Source of the DNA: Synechococcus sp. BIOS-U3-1
GTDB lineage: Bacteria > Cyanobacteriota > Cyanobacteriia > PCC-6307 > Cyanobiaceae
NCBI RefSeq assembly: GCF_014279975.1
Contig: NZ_CP047936.1
Coordinates: 2,232,001-2,296,000 of the forward strand
Reading direction: 5' to 3'
DNA length: 64,000 nt
Position 1 is the stretch's first letter. Each line of letters opens with the position of its first letter. The notes beneath the pieces are model-generated. The model was not told the origin of the DNA. It searched no databases and saw only the letters and a list, made by a program, of their open reading frames with translations. A program made the position numbers and the translations under genes. Of the stretch, positions 11,915 to 33,125 are shown one piece after another.

Positions 11915-12541
11915 ATGCCTCGCAGGACTATTGCCATTGCTGCAGCACTGTCTGTGCTTGCTCTTGGGTCGCAGTTGAATGTCGTTCGTGCGAACCCTTT
12001 ATTTAATCAATTATTTCGTCAAGGAGCTGAAAGTTACAACTCAGGCAATTATCGAGGAGCACTTACTGCTTACACGAAGGCGATAGAAATTAATCCTAAA
12101 AGTGCTGTACTCTACGAATACCGTGGAGACGCTAATTTTCAGTTGCAAGATTACCAAGGAGCAATTGCTGATTACACGAAGGCAGTAGAGATTAATCCTC
12201 AGCTTGGTGATGTATACTTAAGTCGCTGCATTTCCAAGGCTCATTTAAAAGATTATCAAGGATCAATTTCTGATTGTACGGAATCAATCCAGATTGATCC
12301 TCAGAATGCCATTGCCTATTACAATCGTGCTTATTCCAAGGGTAAATCAAAAGACCTTCAAGGAGCAATTGCTGATTACACGACGGCAATAGAGATTGAT
12401 CCTCAGTATGCCAACGCTTATGTGGATCGTGGAATTGATAGAGAAAACATGAATGATCTTAAGGGCGCCTGTCTTGATTGGAAAAAAGCAGCTGGTCTTG
12501 GGAAAGAAAACGCTGCTGAATGGGTGAAGAAGCAGTGTTAG
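11915..12541 (+). CDS. Secreted TPR-repeat protein, copy 1, 208 aa
   Basis: Probable periplasmic scaffold protein. Residues 1-28 form a signal peptide (IAIAAALSVLALGS) nearly identical in the two paralogues at 24605 and 26044. Five 34-residue tetratricopeptide units follow, each of the form DYQGAIADYTKAIEINP; the last is the diverged capping form DLKGACLDWKKAAGLG before a conserved EWVKKQC end. Such repeats bind peptides or proteins, and the closeness of the Nif11-leader peptide genes just downstream (137 bp) suggests a link, though not a proven one. The copies differ in repeat number (5, 7 and 3 units), which indicates recent repeat gain or loss. Confidence 0.85.
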   Translation: MPRRTIAIAAALSVLALGSQLNVVRANPLFNQLFRQGAESYNSGNYRGALTAYTKAIEINPKSAVLYEYRGDANFQLQDYQGAIADYTKAVEINPQLGDVYLSRCISKAHLKDYQGSISDCTESIQIDPQNAIAYYNRAYSKGKSKDLQGAIADYTTAIEIDPQYANAYVDRGIDRENMNDLKGACLDWKKAAGLGKENAAEWVKKQC

Positions 12542-12594
12542 AGATTAGTCCTGTAATCACACGATGAGATCATCACACCTGAATTCCTCAAATA

Positions 12595-12677
12595 CCTGGC
12601 ACGATTGAGCGCAGCAAGTATTAACCAAAGACGCTGCAGCAAACCGTTGCTAAAACACTTAAAGACTCCCGTTACCT
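12595..12677 (+). promoter_or_regulatory. Shared leader of Nif11-peptide genes, copy 1
   Basis: CCTGGCACGATTGAGCGCAG, then CCAAAGACGCTGCAGCAAACC and CGTTGCTAAAACACTTAAAG occur almost unchanged before the Nif11 genes at 13044 and 25573. It is likely a promoter or 5' untranslated region. Confidence 0.55.
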
Positions 12678-12905
12678 ATGTCCCTAGAACAACTCAAAGC
12701 CTTTTTGGAAAAAGTCAAAGGTGATTCTAGCCTTCAGGAAAGACTAAAAGCTGCAAAGTCTTCTGATGAAGTTGTATCTATTGCCAAAGAGCATGGCCAT
12801 GAATTTACTGCTGATAAGATCATTCAGCTCAGTACAAAGGATCTAGAAAACGTGTCTGGAGGTATGGATACTTCCTTCTTTGACTCGGCATGTTATGAGG
12901 ATTGA
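12678..12905 (+). CDS. Nif11-leader peptide (prochlorosin-like precursor) 1, 75 aa
   Basis: Precursor of a ribosomally made peptide. Residues 1-62 are the Nif11-type leader: MSLEQLKAFLEKVKGDSSLQ, then LKAAKSSDEVVSIAKEHGHEF and the end KDLENVSGG. The double glycine is the expected cleavage site of a peptidase-containing ABC transporter. The core, MDTSFFDSACYED, has one Cys plus Ser/Thr residues, which a LanM-type synthetase could close into a lanthionine ring. No modifying enzyme lies in the window; in picocyanobacteria such precursors are often dispersed and served by one remote enzyme. First of a run of three, after the TPR gene. Confidence 0.82.
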   Translation: MSLEQLKAFLEKVKGDSSLQERLKAAKSSDEVVSIAKEHGHEFTADKIIQLSTKDLENVSGGMDTSFFDSACYED

Positions 12906-12954
12906 CAAGGTCTTTGATTGCTTCAATAGCCTTAGGTATCCCATAAGCAAGACT

Positions 12955-13043
12955 CCAATGCCTGGCAAGATTGATCGCAGTAGTTATTGACCAAAGACGC
13001 TGCAGCAGACCATTGCTATAAATATTGAACTGGCCTATCACCC
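12955..13043 (+). promoter_or_regulatory. Shared leader of Nif11-peptide genes, copy 2
   Basis: TGCCTGGCAAGATTGATCGCAG and CCAAAGACGCTGCAGCAGACC correspond to copy 1 with scattered changes, then ~25 bp to the ATG at 13044. Confidence 0.5.
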
Positions 13044-13307
13044 ATGTCACTAGAGCAACTCAAAGCATTCCTCGCCAAGGTCAACGAAGATTCCAGCCTT
13101 CAGGAGAAGCTCAAAGCAGCAAAGTCACCTGAAGATGTTGTAAGCATTGCTAAAGAACATGGTCATGACTTTGCTCTCGAACATATCAACCAGTTGACTG
13201 ACAATGAGCTTGAAGGCGTATCAGGCGGCACTGCTATTACTCCAATAATTGCTGCTACAAATGCTGCAAGCAATGCTTTGAGAGCCGCAGGCCAAAGTTG
13301 CGGTTAA
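13044..13307 (+). CDS. Nif11-leader peptide (prochlorosin-like precursor) 2, 87 aa
   Basis: The leader runs MSLEQLKAFLAKVNEDSSLQ to NELEGVSGG (residues 1-62). The core of 25 residues begins TAITPIIAATNAASNAL and ends RAAGQSCG: one Cys near the C-terminus, many Ala and Thr, and a hydrophobic centre. The leader is the same length as in the three other copies, while the core differs entirely, the classic pattern of leader-conserved, core-hypervariable peptide families. 19 bp separate it from the next member. Confidence 0.82.
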   Translation: MSLEQLKAFLAKVNEDSSLQEKLKAAKSPEDVVSIAKEHGHDFALEHINQLTDNELEGVSGGTAITPIIAATNAASNALRAAGQSCG

Positions 13308-13326
13308 GCCTTAATCAAACAAACCC

Positions 13327-13551
13327 ATGTCCCTAGAACAACTCAAAGCCTTCCTCTCCAAAGTCAAAGGTGATTCCAGCCTTCAGGAGAAGCTGAAAGC
13401 AGCTAAGTCACAAGACGATGTTGTTTCTATTGCCAAGGAGCACGGTCATGAATTCACTACTGACAAGATCAGCCAGCTCAATGAAGAAGAGCTAGAAGGC
13501 GTGGCTGGGGGTTGGAATATTGGGTTAGGCGCGGGGGGTGGAGGCACATGA
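13327..13551 (+). CDS. Nif11-leader peptide (prochlorosin-like precursor) 3, 74 aa
   Basis: The leader, MSLEQLKAFLSKVKGDSSLQ to EELEGVAGG, is closest to the copy at 25573. The core is WNIGLGAGGGGT, glycine-rich with no cysteine, so it cannot form a lanthionine; it may be degenerate, modified otherwise, or carried along. The gene ends about 60 bp before a terminator that is itself duplicated after the fourth copy. Confidence 0.8.
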   Translation: MSLEQLKAFLSKVKGDSSLQEKLKAAKSQDDVVSIAKEHGHEFTTDKISQLNEEELEGVAGGWNIGLGAGGGGT

Positions 13552-13610
13552 ATGGCGACAGGGGCGTCTTAGGCGTACTTCTTCCCCTCGGCTTCAAAAC
13601 TTACACACTC

Positions 13611-13638
13611 AAAGCCTCTGCATTGACAGGGGCTTTTT
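13611..13638 (+). terminator. Terminator after the Nif11 cluster
   Basis: AAAGCCTCTGCATTGACAGG then GGCTTTTT forms a strong hairpin with T-tail. It is repeated, with its flank CTCGGCTTCAAAACTTACAC, after the Nif11 gene at 25573. Confidence 0.8.
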
Positions 13639-13706
13639 ATTTCTTCAGTTACTTTTTAATCTCAGAAAAAGAGGTAACAGGCGCAATCAATACTTGCGCA
13701 TGATGA

Positions 13707-14051
13707 CTATTTCAAGTTAGGAAGTATCACGTTTTGAATAACTTCGTTAGCAACTTTGCCGTTGCAATAAGGACCTAAAGTAGAAGCCAAACCGACTACA
13801 GCTGCTCTGGCATTGTCCGATTCTACTGCCCATAAATAAGCAGGCCTGAGTTGAGGTTGTTCCTCAACGGTCGCTACTATTAATTCATGTGCAGTTTCTT
13901 CTGAAATAAATTCCTTAATTACGTTACATTGAGCCGTCGCAATAGTACTAATAATTGCGGCTCTATAATGCTGTTGTAGTGTTTGTGCGTGTAAAGGCAA
14001 GCCAATGTCGACGGATGCCATTACAGCGATAATCAGAAGCTTAGATTTCAT
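13707..14051 (-). CDS. Secreted hypothetical protein, 114 aa
   Basis: Start ATG 14051 gives a signal peptide MKSKLLIIAVMASVDIGLPLHA, so the mature ~92 residues are exported. The mature part is helical (QQHYRAAIISTIATAQCNVI; TAHELIVATVEEQPQLR) with two cysteines (residues ~43 and ~97) able to form a disulphide. It is AT-richer than the core genes. No family is recognised. It faces the Nif11 cluster convergently. Confidence 0.65.
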   Translation of the reverse strand: MKSKLLIIAVMASVDIGLPLHAQTLQQHYRAAIISTIATAQCNVIKEFISEETAHELIVATVEEQPQLRPAYLWAVESDNARAAVVGLASTLGPYCNGKVANEVIQNVILPNLK

Positions 14052-24604: not shown

Positions 24605-25435
24605 ATGTCACGCAGGACTACTGCCATTGCTGCAGCACTGTCTGTGCTTGCTCTTGGGTCGCCGTTGATTACCGCTTGCGCGAACCCTTTGGCGGATGAT
24701 TTATATGATAGTGGACAGGTAAAGTACAATCAAGGTGATTATCAAGGGGCAATTTCTGATTACAATAAGGCAATAGAGGTTAATCCTGAATACGCCAGTG
24801 CCTTCGTTAACCGTGGTGTCGCCAAGAATAAATTAGGAGATCATAAAGGAGCAATTTCTGATTACAATAAGGCAATAAAGATTAATCCTCAGAATGCCAA
24901 TGCCTACAACAATCGTGGCATTGCCAAGAGAGTGCTAAAAGATTTCCAAGGAGCAATTGATGATTACACGAAGGCGATAGAAATCAATCCCAAGTATGCC
25001 ACAGCATATTACAATCGTGGCAATATCAAGTGTGATTTGGATGATTATCAGGGAGCAATTGCTGATAACACAAAGGCGATAGAGATCAATCCCAAGTTTG
25101 CCCTTGCCTATTACAATCGAGGAAATGCCAAGTACGAGCTAGAAGATCATAAAGGAGCAATTTCTGATTACAATAAGGCAATAGAGATTAATCCTAGATA
25201 TGGCGATGCCTACGGGAACCGTGGCATCGCTAAGTCTGATTTGGATGATTATCAGGGGGCAATTGCTGATTACGATAAGGCGCTAGAGATTAATCCTCAG
25301 AATGCTTATACTTATCGAAACCGTGGTATTGCCAGAGAATTGGTGAATGATCTTCAGGGTGCCTGTTATGACTGGAGAAAAGCAGCAGATCTTGGCGAGG
25401 AAATCGCTTCTGAATGGGTTAAAGAGCAGTGTTAG
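24605..25435 (+). CDS. Secreted TPR-repeat protein, copy 2, 276 aa
   Basis: Same architecture as the gene at 11915: a near-identical signal peptide (TTAIAAALSVLALGSPLITA), then seven tetratricopeptide units (DYQGAISDYNKAIEVNP type) covering residues ~36-262, with the capping unit DLQGACYDWRKAADLG and the end EWVKEQC. Here the cleavage region reads ITAC, which would fit a lipobox, so this copy may be lipid-anchored; the other two lack the Cys. The units are more alike at the DNA level than is usual, suggesting internal duplication. A Nif11-leader peptide gene follows at 25573 as in the first cassette. Confidence 0.86.
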   Translation: MSRRTTAIAAALSVLALGSPLITACANPLADDLYDSGQVKYNQGDYQGAISDYNKAIEVNPEYASAFVNRGVAKNKLGDHKGAISDYNKAIKINPQNANAYNNRGIAKRVLKDFQGAIDDYTKAIEINPKYATAYYNRGNIKCDLDDYQGAIADNTKAIEINPKFALAYYNRGNAKYELEDHKGAISDYNKAIEINPRYGDAYGNRGIAKSDLDDYQGAIADYDKALEINPQNAYTYRNRGIARELVNDLQGACYDWRKAADLGEEIASEWVKEQC

Positions 25436-25489
25436 GGATTAGTCCTGTAATCACACGATGAGATCATCACGCCTGAATGCCTCAAATAC

Positions 25490-25572
25490 CTGGCACGATT
25501 GAGCGCAAGTAAGTATTAGCCAAAGACACTGCAGCAAACCGTTGCTAAAACACTTAAAGCCTCCCGTTACCC
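25490..25572 (+). promoter_or_regulatory. Shared leader of Nif11-peptide genes, copy 3
   Basis: CCTGGCACGATTGAGCGCAA, CCAAAGACACTGCAGCAAACC and CGTTGCTAAAACACTTAAAG match the copy at 12595 almost base for base. Confidence 0.55.
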
Positions 25573-25803
25573 ATGTCCCTAGAACAACTCAAGGCATTCC
25601 TAGAGAAGGTCAAAGGCGATTCCAATCTTCAGGAGAAGCCAAAAGCAGCTAAGTCACCTGAAGATGTTGTGGGCATTGCTAAAGAACACGGTCATGAATT
25701 CACCGCTGATAAGGTCAATCAGCTCAGTGAAGAGGAGCTGGAAGGCGTGGCTGGTGGAACTTACTGTAAACAAAGTTGGAAGGTGGAAACTTTCTACTGC
25801 TGA
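25573..25803 (+). CDS. Nif11-leader peptide (prochlorosin-like precursor) 4, 76 aa
   Basis: The leader MSLEQLKAFLEKVKGDSNLQ to EELEGVAGG is conserved apart from Leu to Pro in EKPKAAK. The core TYCKQSWKVETFYC has two cysteines, at positions 3 and 14, with Thr and Ser available, the best lanthipeptide-like core of the four: up to two thioether rings, or one disulphide. Expected processing is cleavage after GG and export. No LanM or transporter is in the window. It stands alone behind the TPR gene and before a duplicated terminator. Confidence 0.85.
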   Translation: MSLEQLKAFLEKVKGDSNLQEKPKAAKSPEDVVGIAKEHGHEFTADKVNQLSEEELEGVAGGTYCKQSWKVETFYC

Positions 25804-25881
25804 AGGAAGTCAGTAAAGATATTGTCTATACTGAGGTGGAGTGAATAACACTTTCCTCTCGGCTTCAAAACTTACACACTC

Positions 25882-25909
25882 AAAGCCTCTGCATTGACAG
25901 GGGCTTTTT
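25882..25909 (+). terminator. Terminator after Nif11 peptide 4
   Basis: AAAGCCTCTGCATTGACAGG then GGCTTTTT, identical to the hairpin at 13611-13638 together with ~25 bp upstream, so the whole cassette was duplicated. Confidence 0.8.
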
Positions 25910-25946
25910 GTTTCTTCAATCACACCTAAAAGCTCATGAATCAGCC

Positions 25947-25973
25947 TTCAATGCCTGGCACGATTGAGCGCAG
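25947..25973 (+). repeat. Orphan piece of the Nif11 leader
   Basis: CAATGCCTGGCACGATTGAG then CGCAG equals the start of the Nif11 leaders, but the next gene is a TPR gene. Confidence 0.5.
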
Positions 25974-25989
25974 TTAGAGGGTTTTTTAT

Positions 25990-26043: not shown

Positions 26044-26928
26044 ATGTCTCGCAGAACTATTGCCATTGCTGCGGCGCTGTCCGTGCTTGCTCTTGGGTCG
26101 CCTTTGGTTATTGCAAACGCGAACCCTTTAGCGGATAATTTATTCAATAGTGGAGTAGACAAATATAAACAAGGTGATTATCAAGGAGCAATTGCTGATT
26201 ATACGAAGGCAATTGAGATTAATCCTCAGGATGTCGGTGCCTATACCAATCGTGGCATTGCAAAGAATGGATTAAAAGATTATCAAGGAGCGATTGCTGA
26301 TTATAATAAGGCACTAGAGATTAATCCGAAGGATGCCATTGCTTATAGTAATCGTGGTGCTTCCAAGGAATTGATTGGAGACCTAAAAGGTGCCTGTGAT
26401 GATTGGAGAAAAGCAGTAGATCTTGGACATCAATCTGCTGCTGAATGGGTGAAGAAGCAGTGTCAGGCATCTACATCTGCTCAGCAGATGGAATGGGAAA
26501 AAATGCTGGTTGGAGAGTCAGCAGAGGCTGATCAAGCCGCTGCAGAAGGCTATTCATTGCGGGGTGAGGGTGTTCCAGATGGAGTGCCATTCTCAATTGA
26601 AGGCAAACCGGCCCCGGATGATTTTGTTGATTCTCAATGCATTAACGAGGACGATGTGCGCGAACCATGCAAACTCAAAGTTGACCGTATTAATAAGGCG
26701 ATAGGTATTTGGACACCTCCTGGAAGGGTTTCATCAAGGCTTTCGATTTTTAAGGGCTCTTGCCTTGATGCTGGATGTGTTCTTCAGAATCCCGACTATG
26801 GATATCCAGAGGAATACAGGGGCACGACCAAGGTGGTTTCCTGGAGCGGAGAGCACGGAGGATTGCTGTTGAGACAGGATCACGGTTATGAATTTGAGGT
26901 CGTACCTCTAACACCATTCTCTTTTTAA
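26044..26928 (+). CDS. Secreted TPR protein fused to an unknown C-terminal domain, 294 aa
   Basis: The signal peptide and two full tetratricopeptide units plus the capping unit (DLKGACDDWRKAVDLG, EWVKKQC, to residue ~139) are as in the two paralogues. Instead of stopping, the frame continues ~155 residues: QASTSAQQMEWEKMLVGESA, then a mixed part with DSQCINEDDVREPCKLKVDR, TPPGRVSSRLSIFKGSCLDA and a beta-rich end (VVSWSGEHGGLLLRQDHGYE). The extension holds at least four cysteines and may be an exported domain tethered to the TPR. No family is recognised for it. No Nif11 gene follows. Confidence 0.8.
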   Translation: MSRRTIAIAAALSVLALGSPLVIANANPLADNLFNSGVDKYKQGDYQGAIADYTKAIEINPQDVGAYTNRGIAKNGLKDYQGAIADYNKALEINPKDAIAYSNRGASKELIGDLKGACDDWRKAVDLGHQSAAEWVKKQCQASTSAQQMEWEKMLVGESAEADQAAAEGYSLRGEGVPDGVPFSIEGKPAPDDFVDSQCINEDDVREPCKLKVDRINKAIGIWTPPGRVSSRLSIFKGSCLDAGCVLQNPDYGYPEEYRGTTKVVSWSGEHGGLLLRQDHGYEFEVVPLTPFSF

Positions 26929-31932: not shown

Positions 31933-32868
31933 ATGCTTCGCCGCCTCTCCGCAGGACTCTTAGCTTCTGTAGTTGCCATCGCCCCAATGCCTTTGAAGGC
32001 ACAGGACGGCAGTGCAGATGATCTCGGTGATGTGATGAGCATCAGCCTCAAGGATGTGGTCAAGCCAACCCTTGGCTTTCAAGGTGCCTTGCAAGGCGCT
32101 GGCACGCCGAACCAGGCAGGCATTGGTGGATTCTTGCCACTGTCTGTTAGCGATAACAGCGTTTGGTTCCTTGATGCCCTGATCAACGCCAACTTCGCTG
32201 ACCGTGCGGGTGAGAGCAGCATTATTAATACCGACGTTGCTGGTGGAACAGTCAGCACGTCTACCCGGCTTGGTTACCGCTGGCTGAATAGTGACCGCTC
32301 TTGGATGTATGGGCTGAATGCTGGTTATGACAGCCGCTCGGTGAAATCAGGTGATGCCGATACCGGCGTCAACGTCACCAACAAGAGGACTGTCGGGTTC
32401 CAGCAGATCGCACTGAATGCAGAAGCAGTTTCGAATAGCTGGACCTTGAACGGCTATGGACTGATCCCTGTTGGTGATGTGGAGCAGAGACTCAACAGTG
32501 CCTATAACGCTGGTGCACTGAACACCTACGGCCTAGATGTTGGCTATTTCATTAGTCCACAACTTCATGCCTCTGTTGGTTACTACTACCAACACCGCGA
32601 TCAAGAAGAAGTTGATGGTTCTGGCGTACTCGGACGCTTGGCTTATGAAATGACCAGTGGAGTCACAGCAGGATTAAATATCTCCTACGACAAGGCATTT
32701 GACACAAGAGTTTCAGCTGATATTAAAGTTCGCTTTGGTGGTGCAAGCACAACAGCGAAACGCAAAGAGGTTCAACGACTACCTGTTATCAATGCCTTAA
32801 CATCAACACCAAGCAACCGAGATGTGAGGGTACACGATTCATGTGGTGCATGTGACCCTTGGGATTAA
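31933..32868 (+). CDS. Outer-membrane beta-barrel protein, inverse-autotransporter type, 311 aa
   Basis: The protein starts with a signal peptide (MLRRLSAGLLASVVAIAPMP, cleavage near KA-QD). The rest is beta-barrel: alternating strands with aromatic girdles, such as LGYRWLNSDRSWMYGLNAGY, SWTLNGYGLIPVGDVEQR, LNTYGLDVGYFISPQLHAS and VGYYYQHRDQEE. The order (FLPLS...SVWFLDALINANF, then STRLGYRWLN) is that of the intimin/invasin-like inverse-autotransporter barrel. No passenger domain follows; instead the tail HDSCGACDPWD has two cysteines. Such proteins usually display a C-terminal passenger, so this may be a solitary barrel or a truncated form. It is the last gene before a terminator at 33008. 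Confidence 0.72.
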   Translation: MLRRLSAGLLASVVAIAPMPLKAQDGSADDLGDVMSISLKDVVKPTLGFQGALQGAGTPNQAGIGGFLPLSVSDNSVWFLDALINANFADRAGESSIINTDVAGGTVSTSTRLGYRWLNSDRSWMYGLNAGYDSRSVKSGDADTGVNVTNKRTVGFQQIALNAEAVSNSWTLNGYGLIPVGDVEQRLNSAYNAGALNTYGLDVGYFISPQLHASVGYYYQHRDQEEVDGSGVLGRLAYEMTSGVTAGLNISYDKAFDTRVSADIKVRFGGASTTAKRKEVQRLPVINALTSTPSNRDVRVHDSCGACDPWD

Positions 32869-32901: not shown

Positions 32902-32979
32902 ATGAATGGTGGTCAACGAGATGTGCATTCGTGGGGTGGTACATATATGTGTGGTTGGAAGCATTGGGGTGGTAGATAA
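32902..32979 (+). CDS. Possible 25-aa Gly/Trp-rich peptide
   Basis: ATG 32902 to TAA 32979: MNGGQRDVHSWGGTYMCGWK then HWGGR. It has three Trp, eight Gly and one Cys, directly after the barrel gene and before its terminator. No ribosome-binding site. Low certainty. Confidence 0.3.
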   Translation: MNGGQRDVHSWGGTYMCGWKHWGGR

Positions 32980-33007
32980 CAACCCTGGATGCAACTTATC
33001 CCTCAAC

Positions 33008-33032
33008 GCCCCCGCCACACACGGGGCTTTTT
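33008..33032 (+). terminator. Terminator after the barrel gene
   Basis: GCCCCCGCCACACACGGGGC then TTTTTATT. Confidence 0.75.
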
Positions 33033-33074
33033 ATTGCTTCAATCTCGCCAACAATCCCACCAATCAGCCTTCAA

Positions 33075-33125
33075 TACCTGGCACAATTGACTGCAGTAGG
33101 TATTAGCCAATGACACTGCAGCAGT
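33075..33125 (+). repeat. Orphan Nif11-type leader
   Basis: ATACCTGGCACAATTGACTG, then GTATTAGCCAATGACACTGC follow the Nif11 leader pattern, but no Nif11 gene follows; the next genes are a DUF1651 gene on the other strand. Confidence 0.5.

Follow-up and report, generated by a model that had tools for sequence, protein, structure and literature searches.

Class II lanthipeptides of the prochlorosin and synechococsin families are made by systems in which a single LanM modifies scattered precursors in trans, described in PMC10783134 as the normal state, and distance between a precursor gene and its LanM is therefore expected. In Prochlorococcus MIT9313, one LanM is reported to serve 29 precursors, and a CCG motif is given as the mark of the ProcM group of enzymes (PMC10783134). 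Among the related NHLP precursors, Cys-free cores next to LanM-like proteins have already been reported (PMC2887384).

Here, we describe four precursor genes with Nif11 leaders from a 64-kb stretch of a marine Synechococcus chromosome (the window; positions 2232001-2296000 of a single 2,710,834-base contig). These very likely encode class II lanthipeptide precursors of the prochlorosin/synechococsin type, four of ~30 on this chromosome, with a ProcM-like LanM and a C39 exporter provided in trans. The system is an ordinary and well-populated one, and two of its cores, WNIGLGAGGGGT and TYCKQSWKVETFYC, are unseen in 30 other genomes. Features are collected in Table 1.

Table 1. Precursor genes and repeated elements, in window coordinates.
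Feature	Description	Position	Strand	Evidence
Repeated spacer	Upstream of precursor 1	12591-12652	+	Repeat match
Precursor 1	75 aa; leader end SGG; core MDTSFFDSACYED, one Cys	12678-12905	+	ORF, Pfam Nif11, TIGR03798
Repeated spacer	Precursors 1-2	12901-13036	+	Repeat match
Precursor 2	87 aa; leader end SGG; core TAITPIIAATNAASNALRAAGQSCG, one Cys	13044-13307	+	ORF, Pfam Nif11, TIGR03798
Precursor 3	74 aa; leader end AGG; core WNIGLGAGGGGT, Cys-free	13327-13551	+	ORF, Pfam Nif11, TIGR03798
Terminator-like hairpin	3' of precursor 3, within repeated 3' segment	13611-13636	+	Terminator scan; repeat match 13610-13647
Repeated spacer	Upstream of precursor 4	25479-25547	+	Repeat match
Precursor 4	76 aa; leader end AGG; core TYCKQSWKVETFYC, two Cys	25573-25803	+	ORF, TIGR03798 genome search
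Repeated 3' segment	Past precursor 4	25881-25974	+	Repeat match

The original prediction placed all four precursors between 12678 and 13551; three are found there, and the fourth, with core TYCKQSWKVETFYC, lies 12 kb away. Precursors 1, 2, and 3 matched Pfam Nif11 by hmmscan with E-values of 1.5e-19, 9.2e-19, and 2.2e-19, and scored 80.0, 80.2, and 88.9 bits against TIGR03798 (cut-off 32.3), respectively, so far beyond the cut-off that these ORFs are not chance. All four leaders exceeded the cut-off in a genome search with TIGR03798, that of precursor 4 at 84.6 bits. Leaders conserved to the GG followed by cores of differing length and composition had been predicted, and this is what we observed: the three neighboring ORFs are closely alike up to the GG, and alignment of all four yielded 39 invariant columns over ~62 leader residues, a double-Gly site immediately preceding each core, and cores that were unalignable. 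The leader is thus conserved and the core hypervariable within a single genome. Cores of precursors 1, 2, and 4 contain Cys together with Ser/Thr; that of precursor 3 (WNIGLGAGGGGT) has no Cys, as the prediction also stated, no Ser, and one Thr. For the two Cys of precursor 4, the potential ring partners are T1, S6, and T11, and new ring patterns from TYCKQSWKVETFYC are possible but speculative, the pattern itself not being readable from sequence. As precursor 3 begins 19 bases past the stop of precursor 2, these two genes are probably carried on one transcript.

A search of the genome gave a sole LanC-domain match (861208-862275), located outside the window, in agreement with the prediction that the window holds no LanM. 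This match is contained in an ORF of 1129 aa (G000:C1:858979-862365, G000 being this genome) with DUF4135 and LANC_like domains (Pfam), a score of 702.4 bits against TIGR03897 (cut-off 304), and a CCG motif within DHLCCGTFGN. Compared by sequence with proteins of solved structure, it hit LicM2 and CylM and nothing else, and the closest named LanM is that of Synechococcus sp. AG-679-A04 at 97%, in a search from which this genome's own records were possibly excluded. The genes directly upstream of LanM encode ABC, C39-ABC, HlyD-like, and OEP proteins. The adjoining C39 exporter scored 696.4, below the TIGR03796 equivalog cut-off of 853.3, and the HlyD-like protein matched weakly, under the Pfam and NCBIfam cut-offs. 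A second C39-ABC protein, encoded at ~2.03 Mb together with an HlyD protein, exceeds the TIGR03796 cut-off. The original prediction had called the precursors orphans and had set a whole-genome search for a ProcM-like LanM and a C39 transporter as its own test; both are present, the genome having one CCG-motif LanM and two C39-ABC exporters. Because these are encoded elsewhere on the same chromosome, the precursors are not orphans and belong to a known kind of system. The comparison with prochlorosins drawn at the outset was apt, as scattered precursors with one distant LanM are the usual prochlorosin/synechococsin layout. Separately, a LanM that is 49% identical in the best segment (query 48-1109) is found in Roseovarius lutimaris, an alphaproteobacterium, which suggests horizontal transfer.

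The leader family extends across the genome. TIGR03798 matched 49 stretches at E <= 0.1, of which 36 were above the cut-off alone and one more with its neighbors; the 36 include broken copies and others without a GG core. Among 33 cores of >=8 aa sampled from this genome, 30 contain Cys as well as Ser/Thr. By analogy with the published family, the precursors would be processed and exported as follows. One promiscuous ProcM-like LanM, encoded ~1.4 Mb distant, would recognize the conserved Nif11 leader, dehydrate Ser/Thr of the core, and add Cys to form (methyl)lanthionine rings, and the C39 peptidase-ABC exporter would then cut after the GG and export the core. With a single Cys each, precursors 1 and 2 could carry no more than one ring, and the two Cys of precursor 4 would allow up to two. 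Precursor 3, with no Cys and one Thr, could be dehydrated at most, a lanthionine ring being impossible.

We then examined the DNA surrounding the precursor genes. A hand-made query of spacer and 3' segment found 41 matching places in this genome, whole or partial, with 40 of 60 first-look candidates scored, and many of the matches listed adjoin precursors. Cores therefore often have a conserved leader on one side and conserved 3' DNA on the other, and by their sequences the genes look modular. Within 12500-13750, two terminator-like sites were found against a shuffle mean of 1.5, such that the hairpin alone is not above chance, and a sigma-70 scan gave a single promoter-like site, located on the minus strand, where 1.3 would be expected, which is chance level. 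Rfam at gathering threshold returned two tmRNA models and nothing else over 11000-34500, and a scan of viral contigs for phage carriage produced 497 pattern matches, with none confirmed as relatives. Window positions 32902-33124 hold a 25-codon ORF (MNGGQRDVHSWGGTYMCGWKHWGGR) without a leader, followed by a stretch that looks terminator-like by eye and a spacer copy. In this copy, 103 bases are 99% identical to the spacer upstream of the precursor at genome position 1055589-1055774, with no precursor following; the segment may be what is left of a lost array end.

TPR-repeat genes also adjoin the precursors (window 11915-12541, 24605-25435, and 26044-26928). DNA similar to them occurs near other precursors of this genome (1476077, 1478931, and 2003810), but 1080925 and 687228-688802 carry it as well, with no precursor found in the vicinity. 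We considered a 19-kb island carrying all four precursors, as in genome G017 a TPR gene directly adjoins a homologue of the 311-aa gene at window 31933-32868. This reading was dropped: the G017 pair is probably paralogous, because its matches of 83.5% and 89.7% fall under the 96.5% of LanM and the 95.0% of the stretch after LanM.

The gene following precursor 2 occurs with three different cores: WNIGLGAGGGGT in the window, GSKGGSVCEPECR at 2006865, and TDFCYVNTGG in G017. These loci are closely similar over precursor 2 and ~30 bases into the next leader, beyond which divergence is paralogue-like; 5' of precursor 2, the window copy is unlike the other two. A break exactly at the GG was considered and rejected, and we do not claim a break at the core edge, since the copies diverge already inside the next gene's leader. 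At another set of paralogues, 806884 and 2005042 match in the 3' portion of the core but not in the 5' portion, and a third, 1479780, shares DNA with them there but has an indel and a different stop.

For a broader comparison, we paired precursors by 3' flank, using 213 leader-filtered precursors in fetched stretches of four genomes. Of 37 reciprocal best pairs, 16 had a core identity of >=70%, one had 59%, and 20 had <=32%; these pairs are not independent, because several genomes carry the same core, and, as the 3' segments form a repeat family, a best match among them is no proof of orthology. For reference, LanM of G000 and G017 compared over 878 codons gave a pS of 0.110 and a dN/dS of 0.094. 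Nine G000-G017 pairs picked by core amino acids gave a dN/dS of 0.077 for the core and 0.26 for the leader, with one of two TAIT pairs excluded from both sums and the 2005042 leader excluded for its differing length. In the 15 equal-length pairs among the 16 with >=70% core identity, the values were 0.221 and 0.225, respectively. With core and leader nearly equal on re-pairing, we dropped the idea of a stronger constraint on cores than on leaders, and selection bias is suspected in the nine-pair set. Purifying selection on the kept cores would still be indicated, in a sample whose 70% threshold itself favors such a result. The core exceeded the leader in DNA similarity in 12 of 16 pairs, which is not significant (p = 0.077).

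As a conserved leader and repeated 3' DNA flank the core, homologous recombination could swap whole cores between loci. We tentatively suggest that the genes may form a recombining cassette library, in which a leader and a repeated 3' segment or spacer flank each core, cores are either kept near-identical under purifying selection or swapped at once with few intermediates, and some kept cores are Cys-free and would give non-lanthionine products. A PNAS paper of 2017 on the evolutionary radiation of prochlorosin-type lanthipeptides reportedly describes large, indel-driven core changes. Core change by indels is also stated indirectly in PMC10783134, and the module pattern is in line with statements there on indels and recombination in the prochlorosin/synechococsin family; the words "terminator," "upstream," and "flanking" occur nowhere in the main text of that paper.

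Individual cores differ in how widely they recur. Core DNA of precursor 3 with a short following stretch had no match longer than 19-20 bases elsewhere in the 31 genomes surveyed, and the same was true of precursor 4. A 44-base stretch that contains the precursor 1 core has a 98% identical counterpart in G024; there, the leader and the precursor 1-like core are one base out of frame with each other. The precursor 2 core has a one-residue variant at G000:C1:2006582 and an identical copy in G017. These patterns bear on a possible but less likely alternative, in which decay is under way in some of the four, chiefly the Cys-free precursor 3, so that their cores have drifted or been truncated and yield no useful product. 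Broken relatives do exist in this genome, with internal stops at 814856, 989711, and 820182 and a fragment at 1726734, and the restriction of the precursor 3 core DNA to a single place would fit decay, as would the presence of Cys in the cores of the same-position genes that follow the two further copies of precursor 2. All four leaders, however, are open, end in GG, and share the invariant columns described above. Cys-free cores form a minority class, 13 of 208 in a sample of cores >=8 aa from four genomes, that includes a proline-rich core, FVPPPPPPGPG...NNSPVNFAD, found after a normal leader both in this genome (G000:C1:1041570) and in G008. As this core is kept in two species, in copies that differ in repeat length, absence of Cys alone does not signify decay.

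We next consider how the preferred reading, that of lanthipeptide precursors served in trans by the distant LanM, fares across the genus. Our survey covered 31 genomes, several of them incomplete, with a leader threshold of E <= 1e-12. The 12 genomes with a LanC-domain match had 32, 21, 2, >=135, 16, 39, 9, 29, 27, 19, 15, and >=98 strong Nif11 leaders, where the counts for G008 (at least 135) and G028 (at least 98) are lower bounds with 135 candidates scored in each; the 19 LanC-negative genomes had 0-3. Precursor number therefore tracks the LanC-domain protein across the genus, with the exception of G006, which has a LanC-domain protein and only two strong leaders. G008 (3.3 Mb) has two LanC-domain proteins beside its leaders; the highest precursor count given in PMC10783134 is 83, obtained by counting methods that differ from ours. 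This relationship, together with the presence of a CCG-motif LanM, makes it very improbable that the four are true LanM orphans served, like some Nif11 leaders, by a different class of enzyme (TOMM/YcaO or other). TOMM machinery is indeed reported beside Nif11 leaders (PMC2887384), and YcaO-syncA clusters are described in Synechococcus (PMC10783134). Of the non-precursor ORFs near the precursor genes that were compared with Pfam, none matched YcaO. That the ORFs are ordinary Nif11 proteins and not RiPP precursors is hardly credible: some Nif11-domain ORFs of this genome do lack a GG and core (1606558 and 2226368), but all four studied here have both and score 79-89 bits against TIGR03798.

Collectively, these data add four members to a published family and remove the claim that they are orphans. 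Should it hold in further genomes, the modular pattern would help to explain the origin of new cores in picocyanobacteria, and the kept cores would be the natural candidates for tests of function, the function of the family being described as not known (PMC10783134). Among described systems, the NHLP/N11P precursor families share a long leader up to the GG and a hypervariable core after it (PMC2887384), though NHLP leaders resemble nitrile hydratase, whereas those here are Nif11. The prochlorosins (ProcA/ProcM) of Prochlorococcus MIT9313 have the same architecture under a different genus name, and the best segment shows 50% identity to the LanM of Prochlorococcus sp. MIT 0701. The synechococsins (SyncA/SyncM) of marine Synechococcus likewise combine a Nif11 leader ending in GG and a short hypervariable core with scattered and tandem genes, a distant CCG-motif LanM, and a C39 exporter adjoining LanM. 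The system described here does not differ from them in kind, and is set apart by its four core sequences and by a precursor 3 without Cys.
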